From: a virus | Virus record (IMG/VR): IMGVR_UViG_3300030098_004363 | Coordinates: 1 to 64,000 of that record | DNA length: 64,000 nt | Reading direction: 5' to 3' (one strand) | Shown: one piece after another, positions 6,665 to 61,850 of the stretch | Position numbering within the stretch: position 1 is the stretch's first letter | Layout: every line of letters starts with the position of its first letter | Translations under genes and position numbers: made by a program | The notes under the pieces: generated by a model | Database searches by the model: none | The model's input: the letters and a program-made list of their open reading frames with translations, nothing else | Told to the model about the DNA's origin: nothing

Positions 6665-7596
6665 GAGTATTGATGCCTAATTTGTAAAATAGGTGCTACT
6701 TTAATTAATTCATTGATGCCAGTCTTCATGTCTACGTCGCACTTAAACCCTTCGGCTTCTAGTTTATCATAACTCACTTCGTAGTCTCTTTGGTCAGCAT
6801 CTTTGCCAATTTCTTCATAATGAACAAAACATCCTGTCTGTTCTTTTACATATTCTGCGAGTTCCCTTTTTGTCCAATTCAAATGGTTAGCTCCGCAGTT
6901 GTAAACTTTGTGTTTCCAGTTACCCATGTTTTCCACACCCATAGTGAAAGCTTTTGCCATGTCTCTTACATGAATAAAAGTTCTGCGAAAATCTGCTTGA
7001 AAAATAGTCAGTATCTTATTCGTCATAGCCTGATACACAAAATCGTTTACGAGCAAATTCACCCGCATACATGGGCTGACACCAAACCCAGTAGCGAACC
7101 TAAAAGAAACAGTGTTTTCTTGTGTTCCCACCATCTCTTCTGCAACCTTCTTATTTACCCCGTAAAGCGATACAGCGTTGAGTGCGGACTCTTCTGTGCA
7201 AATATCCTCCACCTTACCGTACACGCTGCCTGTGGACGCATAAACAAGAGGAATCTTAGGGTTGTAAGCCTCTCTTGCGAAAATAATATTTCTAGTGCCT
7301 TCTACGTTTACCGCCGTTGCCAAAGCGGGCTGGGATTTGCAAGCCGGAAAGCCAACAATAGCAGCGAGATGAATAATAGCGTCACACCCACGTACAGCCT
7401 CCTTCATTTGTTCCAAGACGGTTACATCGCCATATTCAAACTCAAATCTTGGATTTGTTGCTAACGGAATAATTGCGTCACATTGACCCTTATGAAAGTT
7501 GTCAACACACTTTACTTCATAACCTTTGTCTAATAGATGTCGGCACAATACGTTTCCTACGTACCCGCCACCTCCTGTAACTAATATTTTAGGCAT
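6661..7596 (-). CDS. NAD-dependent sugar epimerase/dehydratase (SDR)
   Basis: 311 residues. The N-terminal motif GGGGYVG binds NAD, ASTGSVYG supplies the catalytic Ser/Thr, and LYGVNKKVAE carries the Y-x-x-x-K pair, so the active site is complete. HLAAIVGFPACKSQP is typical of UDP-glucose 4-epimerase-like proteins. It acts on a nucleotide-linked sugar whose identity cannot be read from the sequence. The start was chosen at MPKILVT because AGGAG stands six bases before that ATG; the frame is open 13 codons further upstream but has no Shine-Dalgarno there. It is the first gene after a 115-base gap and may have its own promoter. Confidence 0.8.
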   Translation of the reverse strand: MPKILVTGGGGYVGNVLCRHLLDKGYEVKCVDNFHKGQCDAIIPLATNPRFEFEYGDVTVLEQMKEAVRGCDAIIHLAAIVGFPACKSQPALATAVNVEGTRNIIFAREAYNPKIPLVYASTGSVYGKVEDICTEESALNAVSLYGVNKKVAEEMVGTQENTVSFRFATGFGVSPCMRVNLLVNDFVYQAMTNKILTIFQADFRRTFIHVRDMAKAFTMGVENMGNWKHKVYNCGANHLNWTKRELAEYVKEQTGCFVHYEEIGKDADQRDYEVSYDKLEAEGFKCDVDMKTGINELIKVAPILQIRHQYS

Positions 7597-50987: not shown

Positions 50988-51137
50988 GTATGACTCCGTA
51001 AAAAAGTAACACCTAAAACCTAAGCGGTTTGTCTAGGTTAAAAAAAATCACAAGGTTAAACTAAGCGCTTAGGGCTTATTGCACGTCGAGGAGGTGTTAC
51101 TTTAGTCCAGTCTTTATGCTAACTCTTTAAACCCCGA
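50988..51137 (-). promoter_or_regulatory. Structured nrdJ leader (candidate cis-regulatory RNA)
   Basis: The 164 bases between the deaminase and nrdJ hold no gene but are highly structured. A perfect 12-bp pair, AAAGTAACACCT and AGGTGTTACTTT (51003-51014 and 51092-51103), encloses about 77 bases and is followed by a U-run of six on the nrdJ side. Inside, CCUAAGCG can pair with CGCUUAGG (51066-51073 with 51019-51026), while AACCUA can pair with the overlapping UAGGUU (51034-51039). The two pairings cannot form together. GGAG lies just before the ATG. The usual cobalamin box GCCACUG was not found. A regulatory RNA or attenuator is inferred from the pairing. Confidence 0.6.
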
Positions 51138-51140
51138 CAT

Positions 51141-51152
51141 TTTATTATACAC
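51141..51152 (-). promoter_or_regulatory. GTGTATAAT-type promoter of the nrdJ operon
   Basis: AGTGTATAAT followed by AAAAT lies at the stop of the deaminase gene, about 160 bases before the nrdJ start. TATAAT occupies 51144-51149. The core is the same as the three other GTGTATAAT elements. No good -35 box is seen. Confidence 0.55.
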
Positions 51153-51676
51153 TAGAAAAGCGATAGCTGCTTATCATTTTCTTTGTCTACCACAAGATCG
51201 TTCAAGTAAGACCATCTTGGGGTAATCCAATCTATCTTAAGTCCATTTTCAAACAGATGGTCGTGTATTAGCTTATCTTCCTCGGAATAGCCGTGTGCTT
51301 TTTGTCCAGCTAAAATTTTCCAAGTTTTTATGTTGTTTTGCCAAAGCAATTTAGCGCACCTGTAACAAGGCATGTGTGTAACATAGGCTATCACCTTCTT
51401 TTTCGGCCTTATTATCATATTGCTTATTGCATTTTGTTCAGCATGAACCATGAAGGGATATTTGTCCGGCCTAGAAGTAGGAAGGTCGTCGTCAATCACG
51501 CCGGTACAAAAACCGTTGTAACCAGCACTGATTACCCTGTTCTTATGAACCAAAACGCACCCAACTTTCGTTTGAGAGTCGGGACTTCTGGTTGCTGTTA
51601 ATTGTGCAAAATTTATGAAATACTCATCCCAAGTTGGACGAGTCATCGCGTTTTTTTGTTCTTGTTCTTCGTTCAC
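51152..51676 (-). CDS. dCMP deaminase with C-terminal clamp-binding motif
   Basis: 174 residues. HAEQNAIS (His78, Glu80) and PCYRCAK (Cys104, Cys107) form the zinc-dependent cytidine deaminase site, with GYNGFCTG before it as in dCMP deaminases. It converts dCMP to dUMP for thymidylate synthesis. The protein ends in KQLSLF, a consensus bacterial sliding-clamp-binding pentapeptide (QLSLF), which is not a normal feature of deaminases. The start is GTG, overlapping the preceding stop as GTGA. Confidence 0.85.
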   Translation of the reverse strand: MNEEQEQKNAMTRPTWDEYFINFAQLTATRSPDSQTKVGCVLVHKNRVISAGYNGFCTGVIDDDLPTSRPDKYPFMVHAEQNAISNMIIRPKKKVIAYVTHMPCYRCAKLLWQNNIKTWKILAGQKAHGYSEEDKLIHDHLFENGLKIDWITPRWSYLNDLVVDKENDKQLSLF

Positions 51677-51888
51677 GCTTTAGACGTTTCTTGTCTTTTT
51701 TGCTTTTTCTTCTTATCGTCTTGCCCATTTTTATACTGTGGATGAATCCAAATCCACCTTTCTTTTTGAGCGTAGGCTATCATTTTACGAAACGATTCTT
51801 TTTCTGGCAACACCCACGCTGACCTGTCGTCAGAAATTTTCATTTTTTCAGCGCCGTTTTTTACAGCGAGATCCTCATTGAACGTCAT
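51673..51888 (-). CDS. Hypothetical basic protein
   Basis: 71 residues, with a Lys/Gln-rich C-terminal tail (DDKKKKQKRQE) and an aromatic stretch ERWIWIHPQYKNG. No family was recognised. GGAGGT and a second AGG precede the ATG. It is translationally coupled to the deaminase (GTGA) and to the beta-propeller gene (ATGA). Confidence 0.5.
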   Translation of the reverse strand: MTFNEDLAVKNGAEKMKISDDRSAWVLPEKESFRKMIAYAQKERWIWIHPQYKNGQDDKKKKQKRQETSKA

Positions 51889-52856
51889 CCTAAAACCTCC
51901 AGTCCATGTATCGCATGTCTTATATCTTCCTCTAGTTGTATTTCCTTAATGAACTCAGCCTTGTTCAAATCATAAACAAGTATTCTAGCAGGAGAAGAAC
52001 CTACAAACAATAGGTTGTCATGTCTTGCAAGACCTCTGTTCCAGTTGTTTACTGCTATTTCGTCAACACAAAATTTTGCTTTCTTAGATCTTGGTATGGG
52101 AGCTACGTCGAACACAACTCCTCCCATCTGCTTGTTAGCTATGCCTAAACAACTAAAGCTTGTAAAGTTAGCAACAAACATATCTTCATATTCATAAAAG
52201 TTATGTATAAAGCTTGCAGCTTTTGTAACTCTCATGTTTGGAGACGCTATACCCATCTCTTGCAGTATACTACCTGATATATATGGCATAGGCGTTACAG
52301 CCTTGACATCTTCAAAATTGTACAGGCCAGTTATTAGCCCTGAAAAAAGAAGTTCTCCATCATGTGTGCATATTGAATTTATGTGATAGTTGTCATCATG
52401 AGAACGGTCTTTAGGGTCTATCTTTTCTTTACCTGTAAAGGCTTTGTGGTCTGGTAGACTCTTCCCTTTTATTTCCCAAAATCCATGAAGGTTAAAATCT
52501 AGGTCAACTTTTACTATAGCGTCATAAGCTGTTGATGTAGCCCATATGAAACCGTCGTGATAGCATATTTCGTGAATAGATTTGAAGGCTGTCGGGTCTT
52601 GGTGTGACTTTACTATGGAGTAGTCATTTTTATTTAGCTCAATAAAACCGGCAGAATCAGAAACGATAATGCGATCAGGAAGAACACAAATGCCACGCAG
52701 ACCTCTTTCTCCTCCACGCTCATTATCATTGATAAAATCTTTTTGATAAGGCTCATAGTGAACAACCTCCTCTGTATCAACATCAACAACGTATAAACCG
52801 CCGTGAATATCGCCCTGCTTTGCAGCTCTAACGACTGTTGTGCATATAATTTTCAT
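51885..52856 (-). CDS. Beta-propeller protein, DUF4915/YncE-like
   Basis: 323 residues, mostly beta strands. Repeated strand-loop units such as GGLYVVDVDTEEV, GICVLPDRIIVSDSAGFIEL, EICYHDGFIWATSTAYDAIVKVD and NLLFVGSSPARILVYDL give a propeller of about six blades. It resembles proteins found near sulfate- and glycan-related clusters. A binding or lyase-type role with a sugar is possible. It sits directly upstream of the deaminase module and at the downstream end of the second glycan locus. Confidence 0.55.
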   Translation of the reverse strand: MKIICTTVVRAAKQGDIHGGLYVVDVDTEEVVHYEPYQKDFINDNERGGERGLRGICVLPDRIIVSDSAGFIELNKNDYSIVKSHQDPTAFKSIHEICYHDGFIWATSTAYDAIVKVDLDFNLHGFWEIKGKSLPDHKAFTGKEKIDPKDRSHDDNYHINSICTHDGELLFSGLITGLYNFEDVKAVTPMPYISGSILQEMGIASPNMRVTKAASFIHNFYEYEDMFVANFTSFSCLGIANKQMGGVVFDVAPIPRSKKAKFCVDEIAVNNWNRGLARHDNLLFVGSSPARILVYDLNKAEFIKEIQLEEDIRHAIHGLEVLG

Positions 52857-53710
52857 CTAAAATACACCGTAAAATCTTGATATGGTTTTGACACATGTTT
52901 GAAATCAAAATCATTGTACTGTATTCTCATTCCATCTGTATATCTGTGATTGATTCCTAGTTCGCTGTTGTCATAACGTGTTACCTTGTAGTCGGAAACT
53001 TTGTTGCATGAATTATGTAAAACAGCACTATATTCTAAGCACGCCATGTTCGGTGGTATTTTTCCAACAAACGCGCCGTTGTATAAAGCTTTCTGAACTA
53101 CCAGTTCAAATTGCTCAAAATCATCAACGTTAGTTCTTTCTAAAACATTTTTTATTAGATTGTAGTAGTATATATGACCGTTGGTAGAAAATGGCGTAGC
53201 AAAGTTTGTGTAGCTTTTTAATTTTGTTGCATCCCACACAAGAAATCTATCTAAAACAAAGTCGCCCTCTTTTGGTTGATCTATATGAAACGAAGCAGCC
53301 TCGTAAGGGTTTTGTATAACTGTGTTATTGCCGAGTCTTAATGACAAGGAGGACAAACTATGATGCGTAAATAAACTTTTTATTTTTCTATATGAGCAAA
53401 CCTTGTCAAACAAAATGTTTTGGTCGTTAAAAAGACATACAAGCTCTCTAGGGTTTGATAGCAATTCAAGAAGATCTTCATTTATATTTTCGCTTTTTTT
53501 AGCTTTCCACCTGATTGGAAAACTAACGTCTCTTCTGTATTTTTTAGAGAAGTGGTGCTGTGTTTGTTTGTAGCCTTCTTCAAAATAATCGCTCGAAGAT
53601 TCGTATAGAACGGTTATGTCAAATAGGTTGCCGCCATTTATCTTAAGGCTTTCCAAGAGTAGGTGTAGCTGTGCTGGTCTATCTCTAGAGATAATTATGG
53701 TTGTTATCAT
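52853..53710 (-). CDS. GT-A-like glycosyltransferase (paralog a)
   Basis: 285 residues. TTIIISRDRPAQLHLLLESLK and YFEEGYKQTQ match the start of the second protein of this type near the right end of the window (ALIVSKDRACQLRLLLESIK, YEEGYRKLQ). LVCLFNDQNILFDK gives a D-x-N in place of the DxD metal site. It is a GT-A-like domain with a C-terminal part ending FDFKHVSKPYQDFTVYF. It probably adds a sugar to an unknown acceptor. ATGA overlaps connect it to both neighbours. Confidence 0.55.
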   Translation of the reverse strand: MITTIIISRDRPAQLHLLLESLKINGGNLFDITVLYESSSDYFEEGYKQTQHHFSKKYRRDVSFPIRWKAKKSENINEDLLELLSNPRELVCLFNDQNILFDKVCSYRKIKSLFTHHSLSSLSLRLGNNTVIQNPYEAASFHIDQPKEGDFVLDRFLVWDATKLKSYTNFATPFSTNGHIYYYNLIKNVLERTNVDDFEQFELVVQKALYNGAFVGKIPPNMACLEYSAVLHNSCNKVSDYKVTRYDNSELGINHRYTDGMRIQYNDFDFKHVSKPYQDFTVYFR

Positions 53711-55974: not shown

Positions 55975-57215
55975 TATTTCCAGCCTTCTAGTAAGAACCT
56001 TAGAGAATTTCTACCTAAAATATTTGTGATTGTACTATCGCTGTATTTGTCTTCGTTTACAGATGACTTTAGACATTTTAGATACCTAGTCAATCTAGGT
56101 AACTCTGATATGTCTGTGATCTCATCTGGAGGATCTGTAAACCCGTCGAAGTCAGTTCCTATTGCAAGAACTTTATCTCCAGCTATATTTATTATGTGAT
56201 CTATTGTACGTTCTATATGCTTTAAGCCTAATCCTGAATCTATTGGGCTTAGCCAATAATTCATAAAGATAATACCTATCAGACAGTTATGGTCTGCTAG
56301 CCACTTTATTTCCCAGTCCTCTAAGTTTAGCGGGTCTGGGTTAACGGCATAAGCACCGATATGGCTAGCAATAACCTTAGACAAGTCATTACCAACTATG
56401 TCATAGACTTCTTGCCTAGCTTTTGGCGTGCAGTGGGTTATGTCTATAATCATACCCATTTCTTTCATGGCTTGCACCACCTTTTTACCAGTTGATGTTA
56501 GACCCTTATTCATATCCCAGCCAGCCATTAGGTTTTTCCAATTACTTCTTTTAATACCGTATTCTGGGTATGGAAACACAGGACTAACCAAGTGGTTTGG
56601 GTAAAAGTGAGCAAGAGTAAGATAGGCAACACCCCTGTTATAGAAGTGTTCAAGATTTTCCATTAGCTCATTTTCTATAAGGGGTTTCACAGCGGTTGTC
56701 TCACCAACACGCTTCTTTGCTAATTCACCATTTAGGGAATGACCTCCCTCCACAGAATGTATCATTGCCAAATTTTCATCAGCAACAGTTTGTTCAAGCT
56801 CTTTTATGTTTTTTACAAATTTAAATTGTCTTTCCGACATAGAGATTGCATTGTAGTCGTCAACTTCTTTTTCCATGCGATCCATCATTGCATTGGTCGC
56901 GTCAAAGTAAGTAGGCTGAAAAACTCTTTTGTTTACAGAAGGATAGAGCCACTTTAGAAATTTGATGAGCTTTTGATCATCCACCCACTCTATCTCAGGT
57001 ATGTAAGATGTGGAAAGAACTACATCTAAACCTCCTTCTTCCATCTTTGGTAGCGTGTTTCTTTCGCTTAGAGGCCAAAAAGCCCTCTTAAATAATCTAG
57101 TTAAGAACCTAGACTCTTTACCGTCAAGAGAACGGTCAAACAAAAAGTTCTTGAGAGTTCCGTGATTGTGCCAGTCAAATATCAAAGATTGTTCGTGTAG
57201 GTTTTTCCAGCTCAT
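55974..57215 (-). CDS. Peptidase M19 (membrane dipeptidase family)
   Basis: 413 residues. FDWHNHG (His16, His18) is the first zinc site, SVEGGHSL carries the bridging Glu, IIDITHCTP and ASHIGAYAV the other His residues, and AIGTDFDGF the final Asp, the M19 order. M19 enzymes cleave dipeptides, including D-amino-acid-containing ones. The HxH at the start differs from the usual HxD. It is unusual in phages. Surrounded by small membrane proteins, it may act on cell-wall peptides during lysis or remodelling (inference). Confidence 0.75.
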   Translation of the reverse strand: MSWKNLHEQSLIFDWHNHGTLKNFLFDRSLDGKESRFLTRLFKRAFWPLSERNTLPKMEEGGLDVVLSTSYIPEIEWVDDQKLIKFLKWLYPSVNKRVFQPTYFDATNAMMDRMEKEVDDYNAISMSERQFKFVKNIKELEQTVADENLAMIHSVEGGHSLNGELAKKRVGETTAVKPLIENELMENLEHFYNRGVAYLTLAHFYPNHLVSPVFPYPEYGIKRSNWKNLMAGWDMNKGLTSTGKKVVQAMKEMGMIIDITHCTPKARQEVYDIVGNDLSKVIASHIGAYAVNPDPLNLEDWEIKWLADHNCLIGIIFMNYWLSPIDSGLGLKHIERTIDHIINIAGDKVLAIGTDFDGFTDPPDEITDISELPRLTRYLKCLKSSVNEDKYSDSTITNILGRNSLRFLLEGWK

Positions 57216-59080: not shown

Positions 59081-59090
59081 ATTATACACC
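59081..59090 (-). promoter_or_regulatory. GTGTATAAT-type promoter element
   Basis: GGTGTATAAT followed by ATATTGG lies 73 bases before the virion-like gene, at the stop of the DeoC-like gene. It is the same core as at three other places in the window. Confidence 0.55.
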
Positions 59091-61840: not shown

Positions 61841-61850
61841 ATTATACACT
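61841..61850 (-). promoter_or_regulatory. GTGTATAAT-type promoter element
   Basis: AGTGTATAAT followed by TATTTAG stands at the stop of the gene upstream and about 42 bases before the acidic protein gene. It is one of four copies in the window. Confidence 0.55.

Follow-up and report, generated by a model that had tools for sequence, protein, structure and literature searches.

On comparative grounds, the 164-nt spacer between the dCMP deaminase gene and nrdJ in the virus DNA analyzed here is a conserved structured RNA in which the helices P1 and P3 form a pseudoknot. On balance, we favor the view that this spacer encodes a leader RNA of a new, pseudoknotted family that controls the expression of the phage ribonucleotide reductase (RNR), and its best reading would be a promoter-proximal attenuator or a riboswitch-like leader of the reductase. 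The window, i.e., the whole stretch of 64,000 nt that was analyzed, comes from a virus record of 93 kb. On its minus strand, the spacer (51151-50988) extends from the dCMP deaminase stop (51152) to the ATG (50987) of nrdJ, which encodes a monomeric B12-dependent reductase.

Architecture of the spacer RNA

As presented in Table 1, the spacer RNA is structured and about 140 nt long, with helices P1 to P4, a TATAAT -10 box before it and a U-run at its end. The first-pass annotation of this DNA had described the 164-base gap, the TATAAT on the minus strand and a 12-bp perfect inverted repeat (AAAGTAACACCT with AGGTGTTACTTT) whose arms lie 77 nt apart and which continues into six T. We recovered all of these elements, and the repeat, which corresponds to P3, is conserved by compensatory change. 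The most telling helix, the pseudoknot helix P1, was absent from that annotation. Since the 3' arm of P1 lies just inside P3, the two helices constitute a pseudoknot. At the junction of P1 and P2, the A-rich UAAAGAG is the most conserved unpaired segment of the RNA. P2 is weak in the window and clear in homologues, where its arms read AGCU/AGCU, AGCGA/UCGCU or AGCC/GGCU, and the P5 mini-hairpin takes the form GCC-GAAA-GGC in members L170 and L185.

Table 1. Positions of the spacer RNA elements and of the flanking genes in the window.
Feature	Position	Strand	Basis or remark
dCMP deaminase	51152..51676	-	PF00383, E 6e-20; upstream neighbor of the spacer
-10 box TATAAT	51144..51149	-	Inside GTGTATAAT (51144-51152), which overlaps the dCMP deaminase stop
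P1 5' arm AUGUCGGGG, pseudoknot helix	51132..51140	-	Pairs with 51083-51091
J1/2, A-rich conserved single strand TTTAAAGAG	51123..51131	-	Conserved columns in the 19-sequence alignment and in divergent members; final two bases in P2
P2 5' arm AGUU	51121..51124	-	Hairpin abutting P3
P2 3' arm GGACU	51104..51108	-	Adjoins P3 5' arm
P3 5' arm AAAGUAACACCU	51092..51103	-	12-bp perfect match with 51003-51014; homologues: AGAGCGACAC
P1 3' arm CCUCGACGU	51083..51091	-	Adjoins P3 5' arm on its 3' side
P5 mini-hairpin GC AAUAA GC	51074..51082	-	GC/GC kept in 17-18 of 19
P4 5' arm CCUAAGCG	51066..51073	-	Covariation and arm-swap score
P4 3' arm CGCUUAGG	51019..51026	-	Same basis as P4 5' arm
P3 3' arm AGGUGUUACUUU	51003..51014	-	Same basis as P3 5' arm
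U-run	51000..51005	-	With P3, terminator-like 3' end of the RNA
Shine-Dalgarno GGAG	50994..50997	-	Sequence; 2 nt past the U-run
nrdJ, class II adenosylcobalamin-dependent ribonucleoside-triphosphate reductase, 733 aa	48786..50987	-	TIGR02505, E 1e-68 (below the model's cutoff), and RNR-II insertion domain

Comparative evidence for the structure

Helix statistics were calculated on an alignment of 19 sequences, in which 98.7% of the cells of P1, 97.4% of those of P3 and 95.4% of those of P4 were paired. When the partner register was slid, pairing fell from 93% to about 40%. For P2, only 67% of the cells were paired because the register of this helix shifts between members, and it is legible family by family. 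Covariation in homologous leaders, which the first-pass annotation had put forward as a check, was observed for P1, P3 and P4: two-sided changes affected 15 of their 25 pairs (4 in P1, 5 in P3 and 6 in P4, i.e., 6 of the 7 P4 pairs). As expected of a structured RNA, compensatory change was widespread, with two-sided changes at 16 of 29 pairs, a result that none of 500 shuffles equaled.

The arms of P1 were further compared by swapping them between 44 distinct members, obtained from 52 loci. Approximately 30 forms of the arms exist among these members, for example UGUCGGGG/CCUCGACG, GUGCUAGG/CCUAGCAC and AGACUAAAG/CUUUAGUCU. The native arms of P1 scored 19.0, compared to 13.0 for arms swapped between members and 10.6 for shuffled arms; the corresponding scores for P4 were 17.8 (native), 12.4 (swapped between members) and 11.4. 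The folding energy of the region was no better than that of shuffles (z -0.03; z -0.98) and is therefore not counted as evidence, the proof of the structure being comparative. A nested pairing of the P1 5' arm with the P3 5' arm, possible in some members, was rejected as it fits neither the window nor L017.

Two mutually exclusive inner pairings had been proposed at first as the basis of a switch. One of them, CCUAAGCG with CGCUUAGG, is P4 and is conserved by compensatory change, whereas the other, AACCTA (51034-51039) with TAGGTT (51017-51022), can pair and is not conserved in homologues. With only one of the two conserved, a switch built on their exclusion is not supported. Likewise, the suggested pairing of CACCUCC with the GGAG before nrdJ is not conserved in homologues.

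Searches for known families and wider occurrences

No credible family match was obtained with Rfam 15 at the gathering or at permissive thresholds for the window and the further loci scanned, and no tRNA or tmRNA was detected. The earlier remark that this is not obviously a normal B12 riboswitch agrees with the covariance-model check, in which no cobalamin family matched at permissive thresholds. In cellular genomes, 41 pattern matches from GTDB, most of them in coding DNA, were read as chance; a search of 398 Pseudomonadota genomes gave no match, which is a weak negative. Chance pattern matches in L234 (66-161 and 856-969) and L254 (about 7284-7394) are repeated inverted elements with arms AGCGACAC...GTGTCGCT. 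They lie on bacterial contigs (a Cryomorphaceae MAG and an Opitutia MAG) and are unrelated to the leader RNA. The RNA was not found in cultured phages, in which there is no near relative of the region and the RNRs have less than 60% identity. It is undescribed in the literature searched.

The RNA precedes reductases of two classes

Among nrdJ relatives in viral contigs, counterparts of the spacer were observed in other marine phages and were absent from many nrdJ relatives. RNA-only DNA patterns containing no gene sequence, combined with a structure filter, retrieved 62 viral contigs. An RNR gene was present 17-441 nt downstream of the RNA in 61 of them (40 nrdA and 21 nrdJ), and the remaining contig ends 177 nt past the RNA. 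The RNA thus keeps a steady position before one gene function while its flanks vary, as a leader would. Each phage record holds one copy; the weak extra matches were antisense of the same site, plus a marginal one (E 0.1) in G010. When 64 RNR loci without a model match were rescanned with the structure filter, none passed, so that the filter is specific and many relatives either truly have no such RNA or have diverged.

Many copies of the RNA precede a class I nrdA followed by nrdB, and some of the nrdA proteins share no more than about 28-34% identity with the nrdA that was found first. The initial description of a leader before a class II RNR therefore stands as regards a conserved structured RNA directly before the reductase, and has to be widened to class I. 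One or two small genes or ORFs lie between the RNA and the RNR in L079, L182, L208, L212 and L213. In the context table, a dCMP deaminase is upstream of the RNA in 17 of 17 nrdJ members and in none of the nrdA members, whose upstream genes come from several unrelated families. It seems that, with the exchange of the reductase, the genes flanking the RNA on either side were swapped. The RNA of L161, which lies before nrdA, shares 81% identity with the RNA of L083, which lies before nrdJ, and at most 64% with the other nrdA-linked RNAs. The reductase class was therefore exchanged behind a kept RNA.

Further upstream of the RNR locus, two proteins are kept in many of these phages, one of 323 aa with a weak DUF4915 match (window 51888-52856, minus strand) and one of 285 aa with no Pfam match (window 52856-53710, minus strand). 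The phage genome also encodes a membrane dipeptidase (Peptidase_M19, E 2.5e-50; window 55977-57215, minus strand).

Promoter-like and terminator-like ends

The start of the RNA is predicted about 6-7 nt downstream of the TATAAT box, and a GTGTAT box occurs at a fixed place ahead of P1 in nearly all homologues. The motif GTGTATAAT is present four times in the window, compared to 0.63 expected, a number reached in none of 100 shuffles. The three further exact copies (2450-2458 on the plus strand, 59081-59089 and 61841-61849 on the minus strand) are in spacers, 30-90 nt before a start codon. Given this excess, and given that each copy stands shortly before a gene or the spacer RNA, GTGTATAAT is probably a phage promoter motif.

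At the other end, five or more consecutive T adjoin P3 in about 42 of the 52 parsed members, and most members without it carry a separate terminator hairpin directly after; L004 and L092 have neither. The clade formed by L174-L181, L219 and L222 has two elements between the RNA and nrdA, namely a terminator of canonical form and a TACAAT-like box that is conserved. Judged by sequence, most members thus possess the U-run or separate terminator of a riboswitch-type expression platform, and the promoter and terminator of a small-RNA gene are also recognizable, most clearly in L174-L181. In the distant members L175, L267, L268, L271 and L279, the P3 3' arm is joined to the separate terminator hairpin by a shared short linker, AA[AT]TAC[AG].

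In the window, the GGAG begins only 2 nt past the U-run, so close that a second promoter, for nrdJ alone, would not fit in between. As P3 is, moreover, only 15 nt from the nrdJ ATG, transcripts must cross the P3 terminator to reach nrdJ, whether they start at the spacer promoter or arrive from the deaminase operon. Control of either termination or translation had been suggested initially; control of termination is plausible, and the pairing at the ribosome site is unconserved.

Proposed function and alternative explanations

Ribonucleotide reductase sets the supply of DNA precursors in phage replication. The link of the RNA with the RNR is kept through changes of enzyme class and of upstream neighbor. 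Cis control of the reductase is the best explanation for this link, and the order promoter, RNA, terminator and ribosome site suggests transcription attenuation. Transcription would start at GTGTATAAT, making the P1 5' arm the 5' end of the RNA, and P2 and P1 would fold first. Once the P3 3' arm is made, the 12-bp stem would close around P5 and P4, and closed P3 with the U-run would stop the polymerase shortly ahead of the ribosome site of nrdJ. The pseudoknot would be the sensing part: a signal that stabilizes or loosens P1/P3 would set the amount of reductase. No competing antiterminator helix is conserved among members, so the route from the signal to the termination switch is not visible in the sequence. 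We also count against cis control the clade with its own terminator and TACAAT-like box, the ends of L004 and L092, and the small ORFs between RNA and RNR.

Because that clade separates the RNA from nrdA in this way, the main rival is an independent small RNA gene that has a promoter and a terminator of its own, is kept beside the reductase and would act in trans, with its targets in the host or the phage. The GTGTAT box fixed before P1 and the terminator that follows P3 in nearly every member would suit such a gene as well. However, the RNA-only scans never place the RNA away from an RNR, though upstream genes and RNR class vary, and the lack of space for a distinct nrdJ promoter in the window also argues against it; we consider this explanation unlikely. 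A plain terminator or mRNA-stabilizing stem without a switch, the remainder being chance, would account for the terminator-like P3 and U-run and for the unexceptional folding energy. It is improbable, as P1, P2 and P4 covary, which a simple terminator does not need.

With regard to the signal, a cobalamin riboswitch or a variant sensing the cofactor of the class II reductase would be in keeping with the B12-dependent gene downstream in the window. Class I nrdA-nrdB makes no use of B12. The lack of an Rfam cobalamin match in the window and its homologues, together with an RNA common to nrdJ and nrdA (40 of the 61 downstream RNRs are of the nrdA type and not B12 genes), makes this hardly credible. 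Since the same RNA precedes both classes, the likeliest signal would be one common to them, i.e., a nucleotide or deoxynucleotide and not B12, or else a protein. The leader could indeed bind a protein or the RNA polymerase instead of a metabolite, as a put-like antitermination RNA or as the target of a phage or host protein that exerts feedback. As this reading is itself a form of cis control, its probability, which we place on the low side, overlaps that of the favored leader. The P3 sequence (GCGACAC/GUGUCGC) is conserved beyond the needs of pairing, J1/2 is conserved and the position is promoter-proximal, all of which speak for a binder; in contrast, the RNR is the sole gene travelling with the RNA, and, given the strong differences between class I and class II enzymes, the RNR itself is unlikely to be a common binder.

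Returning to the attenuator or riboswitch-like leader, the RNA is kept through changes of enzyme class, which suggests as its signal the outcome of the reaction and not the cofactor. We tentatively propose, as a possibility and not as our leading expectation, a new marine-phage riboswitch class whose ligand is a nucleotide or deoxynucleotide and which gates an RNR of any class, the enzyme being swapped and the sensor kept. Overall, these observations point to RNA control of DNA-precursor supply irrespective of the reductase type. The RNA is a candidate RNA sensor for nucleotide metabolism, and it can serve to mark a large group of marine phages that are uncultured.

Comparison with known systems

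Cobalamin riboswitches sometimes precede RNR genes, as for Streptomyces nrdAB. Those of RF00174 and the AdoCbl-variant RF01689 resemble the present RNA as pseudoknotted leaders; unlike them, it matches no cobalamin model and is common to B12-dependent and B12-independent reductases. The manA and wcaG motifs are cis-regulatory RNA candidates from marine cyanophages and metagenomes (PMC2864571), a similar setting, but they are associated with other genes and gave no covariance-model match. In the fluoride/crcB, ZTP/pfl and preQ1 riboswitches, as here, a short RNA that immediately precedes a single kind of gene has a 5' end that pairs into a later loop and a terminator at its end. None of these models matched, and in the present RNA the terminator stem encloses the pseudoknot partner. 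The Weinberg 'nrdJ' motif is reportedly a comparative-genomics candidate, a structured RNA upstream of nrdJ-type reductase genes. The likeness lies in this position, whereas the present RNA also precedes class I nrdA and has no credible match in Rfam 15. With the nrdJ motif compared at the level of its general description, we rate the present RNA as a putative new family among structured regulatory leaders, a kind of RNA that is already known.
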